From the NCBI GenBank assembly GCA_028696995.1, contig JAQVFY010000006.1:1-33879 (forward strand): DNA of 33,879 bases. Reading direction: 5' to 3'. Position numbers and translations under genes: made by a program. The stretch's first letter is position 1. Every line of letters begins with the position of its first letter. The notes under the pieces are model-generated. The model saw only the letters and a program-made list of their open reading frames with translations. It ran no database searches and had not been told where the DNA came from. This document shows positions 22,137 to 32,651 of the stretch, piece by piece. Source of the DNA: Patescibacteria group bacterium (GTDB taxonomy: Bacteria > Patescibacteriota > Patescibacteriia > Patescibacteriales > UBA12465).

Positions 22137-22208
22137 GTCCCTGTAGTTCAATGGATAGAACATCAGCCTTCTAAGCTGAATATCTAGGTTCGATTCCTAG
22201 CGGGGATA
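22137..22208 (+). tRNA. tRNA-Arg (UCU)
   Basis: Anticodon loop CUUCUAA; T-arm GGUUCGAUUCC. Confidence 0.88.
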
Positions 22209-22233
22209 CTCTATAATAATTAATTTTAAAATT

Positions 22234-22767
22234 ATGAATCTTTTTTTAATGTTATTAATTTTAGCTGTTTTATTGATTATTATGGTTTTTTCTCTTATTC
22301 AGCTTTATAATATTGCTTTTCGCGGTTTTGCCCCTTTTATTTCTACTAAATTTAATGCTATTTTAGCAATTTTAAAAGAATTAAACTTGTCTGGACAAGA
22401 AACAGTTTATGAGCTTGGGGCAGGAAAGGCTGGATTTTTACGAGCCATTGAACAGAAATTTAAAAATGAAAAATTAATTGGGATAGAGTATGCTTGGTGG
22501 CCTTATTGTTTAGCTAGGATGCAAATAATGTTATCAGGCAGTAAGATTAAATTAATCAGAAATGATATTTTTAAAGTTAATTTAAAAGAAGCAGATATTA
22601 TTTATTGTTTTTTAAGTCCCAAAATGATGGATCTTTTAGAAAAGAAGTTTAGAAAAGAATGTCGTCCCGGAACCCTGATTATTAGTTATCATTTCAGAAT
22701 GAAGGGAGAAGAGCCAGAAAAGGTTATTAAGGAGAATAAAAATAGTATATATTTTTACCGAATTTAA
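22234..22767 (+). CDS. Membrane-anchored class I SAM-dependent methyltransferase-like protein
   Basis: N-terminal TM then TVYELGAGKAGFLRAIE (motif I), LIGIEYAWWPY, IRNDIFKVNLKEADIIYCFL. Confidence 0.75.
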   Translation: MNLFLMLLILAVLLIIMVFSLIQLYNIAFRGFAPFISTKFNAILAILKELNLSGQETVYELGAGKAGFLRAIEQKFKNEKLIGIEYAWWPYCLARMQIMLSGSKIKLIRNDIFKVNLKEADIIYCFLSPKMMDLLEKKFRKECRPGTLIISYHFRMKGEEPEKVIKENKNSIYFYRI

Positions 22768-22790
22768 TTTTTTAAGATAATTCGGTTTAT

Positions 22791-22863
22791 GGTGGCTATA
22801 GTTTAGCGGCTAGAACACCGGGTTGTGGTCCCGGAAGTGAGGGTTCGATTCCCTCTAGCCACC
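22791..22863 (+). tRNA. tRNA-His (GUG)
   Basis: Encoded G-1, anticodon loop UUGUGGU, acceptor GUGGCUA/UAGCCAC. Confidence 0.94.
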
Positions 22864-22866
22864 CTC

Positions 22867-22898
22867 TTGACAAAAGTGTATCGATGTGATACACTTTT
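22867..22898 (+). promoter_or_regulatory. Module 1 TTGACA-17-TACACT promoter-like element fused to an 11-bp perfect inverted repeat (operator or terminator)
   Basis: ttgacAAAAGTGTATCgatgtGATACACTTTT; a homologous element lies at 24949-24981. Confidence 0.55.
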
Positions 22899-22931
22899 TT
22901 GTTATAGTAGCACTTTCACAAAGAAGTTAAG

Positions 22932-22985
22932 ATTAGGTTAATTATTAAGTCTATTAGGATTAGTAGATTTAATAATTAATCTAAT
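22932..22985 (+). ncRNA. Leader RNA hairpin of module 1 (22-bp stem, 10-nt loop)
   Basis: ATTAGGTTAATTATTAAGTCTA-ttaggattag-TAGATTTAATAATTAATCTAAT; all 22 positions pair including G-U. Confidence 0.65.
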
Positions 22986-23019
22986 AATCAATCTTTAAAT
23001 AAATTTAGGAGGATAAAAA

Positions 23020-23670
23020 ATGAAAAATTTATTTGTATTTTTTTTATTCATTTTTGTTACCACAATTTGTAGTGCGCAGGCAAAACTTCAAGTAAACAAA
23101 GAGGGTGTTTACAGGGTGCAAGCCGATTCCATTGAATGGGTTAATGCAGAAATAACAGCCCACCCAGAAGCACTGAGATATGATTTAAAGTTTTCTGAAG
23201 CAATTGCAAACCCAGGAAAAGAAATCTTGGGAGAAAGAAGTGAAAAAATTTTGAGACTGAAACTCCCGTTCAAGAAACAGGTAGAGGTCAAAAAATATTT
23301 CATTATCTATGATAGTCAAACAAAAAATATTGGCTACCTAGAGGCCACTCCAGTGAGAAAAGAAGAGCCTTCTTATTTAATATTATTTAGTATTATCTCA
23401 ATTCTTTTGATGATAATATCAAATATATTATATAAGAAAGGTCTGGATGGATTCGCCGCCTTCGCCGCCGCCGCCGTCGTCGTCGCCTTCGCCGCCGCCG
23501 CCGCCGTCGCCGCCTTCGCCGTCGCCGTCGCCGCCACCTTCGCCTTCGCCTTCGCCGCCTTCGCCACCTTCGCCTTCGCCTTCGCCGCCGTCGCCGAGAA
23601 AGATTATAAGGTGTTCTCAGTAATATTTTATATATTAATGGCAGTTCATATCGCTCTGCTGTTTGTATAA
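23020..23670 (+). CDS. Module 1 protein: signal peptide, ~90-aa extracytoplasmic domain, TM, Ala/Phe/Val codon array, TM
   Basis: MKNLFVFFLFIFVTTICSAQ; strong SD AGGAGG 8 nt upstream of ATG; paralogous to 25102-25758. Confidence 0.8.
   Translation: MKNLFVFFLFIFVTTICSAQAKLQVNKEGVYRVQADSIEWVNAEITAHPEALRYDLKFSEAIANPGKEILGERSEKILRLKLPFKKQVEVKKYFIIYDSQTKNIGYLEATPVRKEEPSYLILFSIISILLMIISNILYKKGLDGFAAFAAAAVVVAFAAAAAVAAFAVAVAATFAFAFAAFATFAFAFAAVAEKDYKVFSVIFYILMAVHIALLFV
23452..23595 (+). repeat. GC-rich in-frame codon array (48 codons, only GCC/TTC/GTC/ACC)
   Basis: Manual count 28 GCC, 11 TTC, 7 GTC, 2 ACC; 113/144 G+C. Confidence 0.9.
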
Positions 23671-23691: not shown

Positions 23692-23722
23692 AATCCCGCA
23701 TACAAATAAGTCGGGATTTTTT
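23692..23722 (+). terminator. Module 1 terminator
   Basis: AATCCCG-catacaaataagt-CGGGATTTTTT; conserved in module 2. Confidence 0.85.
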
Positions 23723-23735
23723 ATTTAAAATAATA

Positions 23736-23815
23736 GTGAGTTACACGGTGGGGTAAACTTGCGGGACATACTTTATCTCCATCAACTCAGTTCTAATGTT
23801 CTCCATGAAGCCACT
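23736..23815. repeat. Intergenic repeat R, copy 1
   Basis: gagttaca...gttctaatgttctccatgaagccact; 62/78 identical to copy 2 without gaps. Confidence 0.8.
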
Positions 23816-23820
23816 TCCTA

Positions 23821-23856: not shown

Positions 23857-24849
23857 ATGAACCAGATAAACATAAAAAAACAAAAGACCTCAGAAAAAAT
23901 ATTAGAAATTATTTCTAAAAAGGGCCGAATAAGCGCCAACGAATTATCGGAAATTTTAGAGATAAGTCCACGAGCCACTTTTAAACAATTGGCCAGGTTA
24001 GTTTTGGATAATAAGATTGATAAAATAGGTCGTCCACCAAAGGTTTTTTATTTTATTAAAAAAGAAAAAGTCATAGAAGATAAGATTAATTTAGACAACA
24101 AAACAAAAAAAATTATTGAAGAAACATATTTAATTATTACTCCTTCAGGTGAGCGTAAGAGTGGAACAGAGGGGTTTGCTTATTGGTGTAATAAAAATAA
24201 ATTGCCAATTGAAAAAACTGCCCAAGAATATATAAAGACTTTAAAAAAATATGAAAAATTTAAGAAAAATGGCTTAATAAGCGGGATGACCAAAATTAAA
24301 AATACTTTTAAAAAAACTGCTTTGAAAAATTTATTTTATTTGGATTTTTATAGTATTGAAAGATTTGGCAAAACTAAATTAGGCCAATTACTGCTTTATG
24401 CCAAACAAAGTCAAGATAAAAAATTAATGAAAGAGTTGATAGATATAATAAGACCACAAATTATTCAAGTTATTGATAAATACAAAATAGATGGGGTCGG
24501 CTTTATTCCTCCGACAGTAAAAAGAGAAAAACAATTTATGAAATTTTTGGAAAATAATTTGCATCTACAAATTAGGTTAGTAAAAATAAGTAAAGCTAGA
24601 ACTGATATTATGGTTCCCCAAAAAACATTAAATAAACTTGAAGACCGCATAGACAATGCCAAAAAGACAATTATTGTTGAAGATCGCTTGCAATATAACA
24701 ATATTTTATTAATAGATGACGCTGTTGGCTCTGGGGCGACCTTAAATGAAACAGCTACTCAAATTAAAAAAAATGGAGCAAGTAAAAATATTATCGGACT
24801 AGCTATAACAGGTAGCTTCAAAGGATTTGATGTTATAAGCGAGGTTTAA
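23857..24849 (+). CDS. Winged-HTH plus ComF/type I phosphoribosyltransferase-domain protein
   Basis: N-terminal ILEIISKKGRISANELSEILEISPRATFKQLARL HTH; C-terminal ILLIDDAVGSGATLNETATQIKKNGA PRPP loop, preceded by QKTLNKLEDRIDNAKKTI, ComF-like. Confidence 0.82.
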   Translation: MNQINIKKQKTSEKILEIISKKGRISANELSEILEISPRATFKQLARLVLDNKIDKIGRPPKVFYFIKKEKVIEDKINLDNKTKKIIEETYLIITPSGERKSGTEGFAYWCNKNKLPIEKTAQEYIKTLKKYEKFKKNGLISGMTKIKNTFKKTALKNLFYLDFYSIERFGKTKLGQLLLYAKQSQDKKLMKELIDIIRPQIIQVIDKYKIDGVGFIPPTVKREKQFMKFLENNLHLQIRLVKISKARTDIMVPQKTLNKLEDRIDNAKKTIIVEDRLQYNNILLIDDAVGSGATLNETATQIKKNGASKNIIGLAITGSFKGFDVISEV

Positions 24850-24868
24850 TTTTGTCTTTTTTTATAAC

Positions 24869-24946
24869 GAGTTACAAAGTAGGGTAAATTACAAGAATAT
24901 ATTTTACATCTATCAACCCAGTTCTAAAGTTCTCCATGAAGCCACT
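24869..24946. repeat. Intergenic repeat R, copy 2
   Basis: Ungapped 78-nt alignment to copy 1; ends gttctccatgaagccact. Confidence 0.8.
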
Positions 24947-24948
24947 TA

Positions 24949-24981
24949 TTGACAAAAGTATATCAATTATGATACACTTTT
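24949..24981 (+). promoter_or_regulatory. Module 2 TTGACA-18-TACACT element with inverted repeat
   Basis: ttgacAAAAGTATATCaattatGATACACTTTT; homologous to module 1, one mismatch in the repeat. Confidence 0.55.
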
Positions 24982-25012
24982 TTGTTATGCAGATCTTTAA
25001 AAAGAGGTTAAA

Positions 25013-25066
25013 ATTAGGTTAATTATTGAGTTTATTATAATTAGTAGATTTGATAATTAATCTAAT
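25013..25066 (+). ncRNA. Leader RNA hairpin of module 2 (22-bp stem, 10-nt loop)
   Basis: ATTAGGTTAATTATTGAGTTTA-ttataattag-TAGATTTGATAATTAATCTAAT; differences from copy 1 preserve pairing. Confidence 0.65.
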
Positions 25067-25101
25067 TTTTAATTTTAAAAATATAAAATAGGAGGTATAA
25101 A

Positions 25102-25758
25102 ATGAAAAAGTTATTTGTATTTTTTGTATTTACTTTTGTGGCTATAATTTGTAGCGCTCAGGTTGAGTTAGAAGGTAATAAAGAGGGAGTATATCGCGTT
25201 AAAGAAGACACTCAAGAATGGGCACCTTCCAAAATAACTGCAGAGTATGAAGCTATTAAGTATATTAATAAATTCTCTCAGGCAATTAGTAGCCCCGATA
25301 CGCCAATTCTGGCAGAAAGGAGTGAAGAGGTTCTAAAACTAAAACTAATATTTAAAAAGTTAGTAGAGGTTAAAGAACGCTTTATTTTTTATAATAGTCA
25401 AACAAATAATATTGACTATATAGAAACTCTCCCCGCCGAGAGAGAAGAATCTTCTTATTTAATATTATTTAGTATCGCATCAATACTTTTGATGGTCGTA
25501 TCAAATATATTATTTAAGATGGGGAAATGTGGATTCGCCGCCCTCACCGCCGCCCTCACCGCCCTCACCGCCGCATTTGCCCTCACCGCCGGCACCGCCG
25601 TCGCTGTCACCGCCGGCACCGCCGTCGCTGTCATCGCCGCCGCTTTCGTTGCCATCGTCGCCTCCGTCGTCGACGATAAAGATCGTAAAAAATATAAGGT
25701 GGCATCGATAATATTTTATGTTTCAATAGCAGTTCATATTATTTTGCTATTTACATAG
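25102..25758 (+). CDS. Module 2 protein: paralog of 23020-23670
   Basis: MKKLFVFFVFTFVAIICSAQVELEGNKEGVYRVKEDTQEW...; same architecture; SD AGGAGG. Confidence 0.8.
   Translation: MKKLFVFFVFTFVAIICSAQVELEGNKEGVYRVKEDTQEWAPSKITAEYEAIKYINKFSQAISSPDTPILAERSEEVLKLKLIFKKLVEVKERFIFYNSQTNNIDYIETLPAEREESSYLILFSIASILLMVVSNILFKMGKCGFAALTAALTALTAAFALTAGTAVAVTAGTAVAVIAAAFVAIVASVVDDKDRKKYKVASIIFYVSIAVHIILLFT
25534..25671 (+). repeat. GC-rich in-frame codon array of module 2 (46 codons)
   Basis: CTCACCGCC repeats and a 24-bp tandem duplication GGCACCGCCGTCGCTGTCA[C/T]CGCC at 25591-25638. Confidence 0.85.
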
Positions 25759-25810: not shown

Positions 25811-25823
25811 ATTTATATATAGT

Positions 25824-25928
25824 GAGTTACATGGGGGTGCGTAAAGCGACTTTGTCACCACGCTATTGGAGGGCGGGAATATGTCTCCTATCCATCAAAT
25901 CAATTCTAATGTTTTTTATGAAGCCACC
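25824..25928. repeat. Intergenic repeat R, copy 3 (longer, diverged left half)
   Basis: Starts gagttaca; last ~39 nt match copy 1 with 6 mismatches, ending atgaagccac. Confidence 0.7.
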
Positions 25929-32438: not shown

Positions 32439-32651
32439 ATGAAAAAAGTTGCTAAAAAGAAACCAGTAGCAAAAAAGAAAGTTGCTAAAAAGGTTGTAGC
32501 TAAAAAACCAGTAGCAAAAAAGAAAGTTGCTAAAAAGAAACCAGTAGCAAAAAAGAAAGTTGCTAAAAAGGTTGTAGCTAAAAAACCGGTAGCAAAGAAA
32601 AAGGTTGCTAAAAAGAAAGTTGCAAAAAAGAAAGTTGCAAAAAAGAAATAA
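32439..32651 (+). CDS. Histone H1-like Lys/Ala/Val-repeat protein
   Basis: MKKVAKKKPVAKKKVAKKVVAKKPVAKKK...; promoter, AT-rich leader and terminator all present. Confidence 0.8.
   Translation: MKKVAKKKPVAKKKVAKKVVAKKPVAKKKVAKKKPVAKKKVAKKVVAKKPVAKKKVAKKKVAKKKVAKKK
32448..32603 (+). repeat. 78-bp in-frame tandem duplication within the Lys/Ala-repeat gene
   Basis: Units 32448-32525 and 32526-32603 nearly identical (a few third-position differences near the end). Confidence 0.85.

Follow-up and report, generated by a model that had tools for sequence, protein, structure and literature searches.

Tandem repeats inside bacterial coding sequences (VNTRs and trinucleotide repeats), the (CCG)n/(GCC)n triplet repeats that occur at human repeat-expansion loci and the boxA-bearing leaders of rRNA operons are the described systems closest to the locus presented here; a literature search returned nothing on point. 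Like the bacterial in-frame repeats, the arrays we analyzed have units that are multiples of 3 bp, keep the reading frame and grew by duplication of DNA. Unlike VNTRs, they appear to form a transmembrane (TM) hairpin of kept length, and their codon dialect differs between relatives. The human triplet loci are resembled in that GCC is the commonest unit of the gene A array (28 of the 48 codons), which, however, mixes in GTC, TTC and ACC; the clear periods of the arrays are in the range of 24–60 bp. The leaders of gene A and its paralog B contain, as in rRNA operons, a sigma70-type promoter followed by a boxA-like block, but in them a closed hairpin, rich in A and T, and the start codon of a protein come next, and leaders of this type stand before many unrelated genes.

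The window, i.e., the whole stretch of 33,879 nucleotides that was analyzed, corresponds to contig C16 in the draft genome of a Patescibacteria group bacterium, which comprises 898,547 bases in 55 contigs. The array within gene A had been described as consisting of 48 consecutive codons drawn from a set of four in an AT-rich background, and the count confirmed it: GCC 28, TTC 11, GTC 7 and ACC 2, with 113 of the 144 bases being G or C (78%) against 29% G+C in the window. The third base is C throughout and the second is always C or T. Codon usage alone is insufficient to account for this pattern, as had been argued, since 48 choices of the C-ending synonym have a p of ~10^-42 under the usage of the window; in its 27 other ORFs, GCC makes up 21% of Ala codons, TTC 6% of Phe, GTC 7% of Val and ACC 23% of Thr codons. 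The statement that alanine codons outside the array depart from the pattern was true only in part: gca and gct do so, but GCC (three times) and GCG (once) also occur there. Outside the array, the third-position G+C of gene A is 30%, which is ordinary for this genome. Neither strand of the window contains a second run of at least six such codons, and (DYC)9, a pattern of nine codons, had no other occurrence in the 898-kb genome. The positions of the features are collected in Table 1.

Table 1. Features of gene A, its paralog and related loci.
Feature	Position	Strand	Description and basis
Promoter of gene A	22867..22895	+	TTGACA, 17-nt spacer, TACACT; sequence
boxA-like block AGCACTTTCACAAA	22909..22922	+	Conserved block in 37 aligned leaders
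Leader hairpin of gene A	22930..22988	+	AT-rich, 25-bp stem; fold z = -6.5; covariance model 78.7 bits
Gene A	23020..23670	+	216 aa; signal peptide, beta-rich domain, TM1, array, last TM helix; ORF, homologs, AlphaFold2
TM1 of gene A	23377..23436	+	Residues 120-139; helix in model, conserved in homologs
48-codon array of gene A	23452-23595	+	Codons 145-192 of gene A; located at the TM2-TM3 hairpin position
Last TM helix of gene A	23605..23664	+	Residues 196-215; model, conserved in homologs
Terminator-like inverted repeat CCCGCATACAAATAAGTCGGG-T6	23692..23722	+	3' of gene A; sequence
Leader hairpin of paralog B	25011..25069	+	Fold z = -6.1; covariance model 69.8 bits
Paralog B	25102..25758	+	218 aa; 62% identical to A over the N-terminal part; ~2 kb downstream
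Array of paralog B	25534..25674	+	47 codons, 40 C-ending (GCC/ACC/GTC/CTC and others), partly decayed, 24-bp duplication
Array of L003 (G027, another genus)			50 codons: GCC 31, GTC 12, TTC 4, GCT 2, TCC 1
Array of L068 (G349, another order)			~44 codons; GCA/GTA nearly alternating with C- or T-ending codons
Leader hairpin in L070	2915-2973		
Other leaders that follow a tRNA gene			L209, L215, L206, L212, L230, L231, L235, L245

Candidate counterparts elsewhere were rejected. The DYC arrays in the order were mostly GCC/TCC/ACC runs reading Gly-rich on the opposite strand, and a mixture of GCC with both GTC and TTC of the kind seen here was limited, among the places listed, to G000 and G027. 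Viral contigs with TTCGCC(KYC)11 gave 80 tabulated loci, and the three inspected closely (L105, L085 and L115) encode acidic or Gly-rich proteins on the opposite strand.

The gene A product is best explained as a small exported, membrane-anchored protein with a beta-rich outer domain of ~95 residues and four helices. Searches of Pfam, NCBIfam and PHROG gave no known family over the cut-off or credible, the weak PHROG matches being located on the low-complexity part, and a fold search with the outer domain gave no significant match to a solved fold. Profile searches with the N-terminal part found full relatives in 5 of the 39 genomes of the GTDB family to which the source genome belongs and one in another order of the same class (G349). 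In a further phylum-wide sample of 384 genomes, no relative except G000 was found with the N-terminal profile, and a three-row profile scan of a contig collection returned only the G027 record. The gene family is rare among the sampled genomes, the searches covering about half of the known species. In its nine known members, the N-terminal domain, TM1 and the last TM helix are homologous, as judged by profile matches and the nine-protein alignment. G034 was rejected as a member, its weak match being limited to the first 50 profile positions and the remaining protein having a different architecture. A viral or plasmid origin was rejected as well: the N-terminal domain had no relatives in viral contigs, phages or plasmids.

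Several other elements were noticed in the surroundings. A 94% identical copy of the gene A terminator-like repeat stands after gene B. An intergenic repeat of ~85 bp (GAGTTACAC...GAAGCCAC) is present in three diverged copies, after A (23733-23816), before B (24864-24947) and after B (25819-25927). The gene between A and B (23857-24849) encodes a winged helix-turn-helix and a phosphoribosyltransferase domain; its best PADLOC matches were PsyrT (E 6e-17) and ShosT (E 7e-7), both toxins of toxin–antitoxin defence systems. Further away, at 32442-32648, a Lys/Ala-type unit (AAAAAAGTTGCTAAAAAG...) of 78 bp is repeated in tandem, with 2.7 copies, 92% matches and a sub-period of 15 bp.

The comparison of array length and composition among relatives, proposed together with the original prediction, revealed four genes (A, B, L003 and L068) with arrays at the same position, built from differing codon sets. 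The array of gene A does lie between two predicted TM helices, as claimed, and itself covers the place of two more. Five other homologs (L004–L008) have two ordinary hydrophobic helices at this position. The span from TM1 to the last TM helix is 58, 60, 65 and 56 aa in the array genes and 58, 57, 60, 53 and 64 aa in the non-array homologs, and the best-window Kyte–Doolittle (KD) hydrophobicity is 2.1–2.6 in both groups. The array replaces TM2 and TM3 and is not an extra stretch. AlphaFold2 modeled the gene A array as two helices (residues 143-164 and 171-191), matched by helices 141-161 and 166-186 of the non-array homolog L007. The pLDDT in the array is low (50–68) and the models of A and L007 were built on the same nine sequences, so this placement is support rather than proof that the array inserts in the membrane as two helices, which we consider probable.

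The same comparison bears on whether the array is real and read in the right frame. Repeat length can be mis-assembled in a draft genome of 55 contigs, but an assembly or binning artefact is very improbable: like arrays with homologous flanks on both sides are present in three separate genomes, no stop codon interrupts the frame, and the flanks match the contig in being AT-rich. Hardly credible is the idea that the array truly codes on the opposite strand, reading Gly/Glu/Asp, as many GCC-rich arrays elsewhere do. The majority of the pattern matches in viruses and other genomes do look like the reverse of Gly- or acid-rich genes, but in the present case four genes show homology of the sense frame on either side of the array, the reverse strand of L068 would read Cys/Tyr/Gly, and there is no minus-strand ORF of at least 80 aa over the array.

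The presumed growth of the arrays by in-frame repeat expansion was supported by duplicated in-frame blocks, but with units of 24–60 bp, so that trinucleotide or hexanucleotide slippage is not the only process. In gene A, both ACC codons are part of a 9-codon block that recurs with a period of 30 bp (p = 0.0026 versus codon shuffles); the simplest repeat statistics were borderline for this gene (p 0.06–0.10) and the rare-codon test alone was clear. In paralog B, both GGC codons lie in an 8-codon block with a 24-bp period (0 of 20,000 shuffles). For L003, the block has 13 codons and a 60-bp period, and both GCT codons belong to it (p = 0.00015, rare-codon test). All three periods are multiples of 3 bp and the frames are open. 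Internal repeats exceeded codon shuffles in B, L003 and L068. Since a rare codon and its neighbours are common to both copies of a block, the arrays grew by duplication of DNA and not by convergence of amino acids; replication slippage or unequal recombination would be the mechanism. DNA sharing between any two arrays was no higher than in shuffles, which suggests that each array turned over independently. The arrays of A, B and L003 may derive from one array-bearing ancestor. Most simply, the L068 array has a separate origin, and its different codons in another order are the reason for stating that arrays arose at least twice.

The duplicated blocks show that in-frame length changes occur, and the gene A array must be young, as it has no synonymous third-base change over 48 codons. 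Both facts would suit a contingency locus, in which the array is kept for frequent length change and gives variants of an anchored surface protein within the population. This explanation is nevertheless improbable, because the arrays have 44–50 codons in four divergent genes and the whole TM1-to-last-TM span equals that of the array-free homologs. For the same reason, the length-variable membrane segment originally suggested found no support.

The explanation that we favor, and consider likely, is that selection holds the length and hydrophobicity of the hairpin and not its sequence, and that in-frame repeats replaced it, probably at least twice. The TM2–TM3 hairpin would be constrained almost solely in these two properties. 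A T or C as the second codon base gives Ala, Val, Phe, Leu, Thr and similar hydrophobic or small residues; since this holds whatever the outer bases are, in-frame tandem duplications of such codons would be compatible with the membrane. Repeated duplication of 24-, 30- and 60-bp units and homogenisation could then have turned the DNA of an ancestral hairpin, presumably of the non-array form, into a low-complexity array. Such a replacement would have happened at least two times in the protein family of gene A, in different codon dialects, with the total length bounded by the requirement for two membrane passes. If the hairpin is a two-pass anchor only, in-frame duplication should be close to neutral as long as the length is kept. 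What is observed among the array and non-array homologs is that lengths are equal and sequences differ. It counts against this explanation that strict C at all 48 third positions of gene A needs very recent homogenisation.

The same third positions could instead point to selection at the nucleotide level, with the pyrimidine-rich, C-ending pattern acting as a signal in DNA, in mRNA or for translation speed. The use of C at the end of all 48 codons runs against the genome usage, and the array RNA is unusually unstructured (fold z = +4.6). We regard such a signal as distinctly unlikely, given that L068 breaks the third-base pattern, B is losing it and five homologs are without it. Because L068 uses GCA/GTA with C- or T-ending codons, what the arrays have in common is the hydrophobic property of the protein and not a nucleotide pattern.

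The array genes A, B and L003 are preceded by leaders with a hairpin of ~25 bp, whose folding energies are 6–7 standard deviations below those of shuffles; no such fold was found in the leaders of L004, L005, L007, L008 and L068. A covariance model of the hairpin matched 32 of the 39 genomes of the bacterial family, and its matches include the loci L206–L245. In a class-wide sample of 384 genomes, under strict filters, the genomes with a detected hairpin were 15 from this family and a single one from elsewhere in the same order. Among 44 further matches, 41 have an ORF of at least 40 aa in the same orientation that starts 12–31 nt downstream, and 40 of the 44 leaders have an upstream TTG-N18-21-TA---T motif, the promoter pattern also seen in gene A, mostly 54–65 nt before the hairpin. 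In the alignment of 37 leaders, 12 of 23 hairpin pairs change on both sides yet stay paired. Pairing was retained in 95.5% of cells; the corresponding values were 88.3% for shuffles and no more than 47% after sliding. The structure came from RNAalifold run on this very alignment, which gives it a slight advantage, yet compensatory changes, with 84 cells versus 29 in shuffles, far exceeded the controls. Only tRNAs scored over the cut-off in Rfam searches of the window (at gathering scores) and of ten leader loci (at E <= 1), and ten proteins encoded downstream of leaders had no Pfam match over the cut-off. An integron attC site was rejected as an identity for the hairpin: its arms carry GTT at 5' and AAC at 3', the reverse of attC.

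The boxA-like block is placed between promoter and hairpin and resembles sequences, short and compared by eye, in rRNA leaders of the same family; from this likeness, a reasonable guess is that it acts in antitermination. The gene A promoter (22867-22895) carries between its -35 and -10 motifs an operator-like palindrome, GTGTATC-GATGT-GATACAC, and a similarly placed, operator-like GTATATC-N6-GATACAC was seen in the gene B promoter (24949-24978); spacers of a similar kind were seen in several leaders elsewhere. The leader genes L222, L227, L244 and L208 encode, as gene A does, signal peptides that end in ..AQ. Such endings are common in Bacteroidota.

The leader does not explain the array, as other leader genes were seen without an array and the L068 array has no such leader. 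In nine of the 44 leaders, that of gene A included (region 22137-22995), a tRNA gene on the same strand stands no more than ~165 nt before the hairpin. L209, in another genus (G032), has a near-identical leader behind tRNA-Arg(tct) and tRNA-His(gtg), a pair that the window also has, but carries an unrelated 93-aa gene. The same tRNA pair and leader with a different gene suggest that the gene behind the leader is exchangeable. Tentatively, and with more doubt than confidence, the array genes may be placed in lineage-specific single-gene units composed of a sigma70-type promoter, a boxA-like block, a covarying hairpin and a start codon ~25 nt later, with orphan genes exchanged between genera, often right after a tRNA. 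These units would represent an undescribed expression or cassette system of the Falkowbacteria-containing family, and the repeat-built hairpin would be one product of fast evolution in it.

The locus offers a natural case in which a transmembrane hairpin has been rewritten by repeat DNA, probably more than one time, with length and hydrophobicity kept. With it, one can test whether certain membrane helices are under selection as greasy spacers and nothing more. The leader, a cis-acting element with strong covariation, precedes many orphan genes of a family with reduced genomes, and it may show how these genes are expressed or exchanged.
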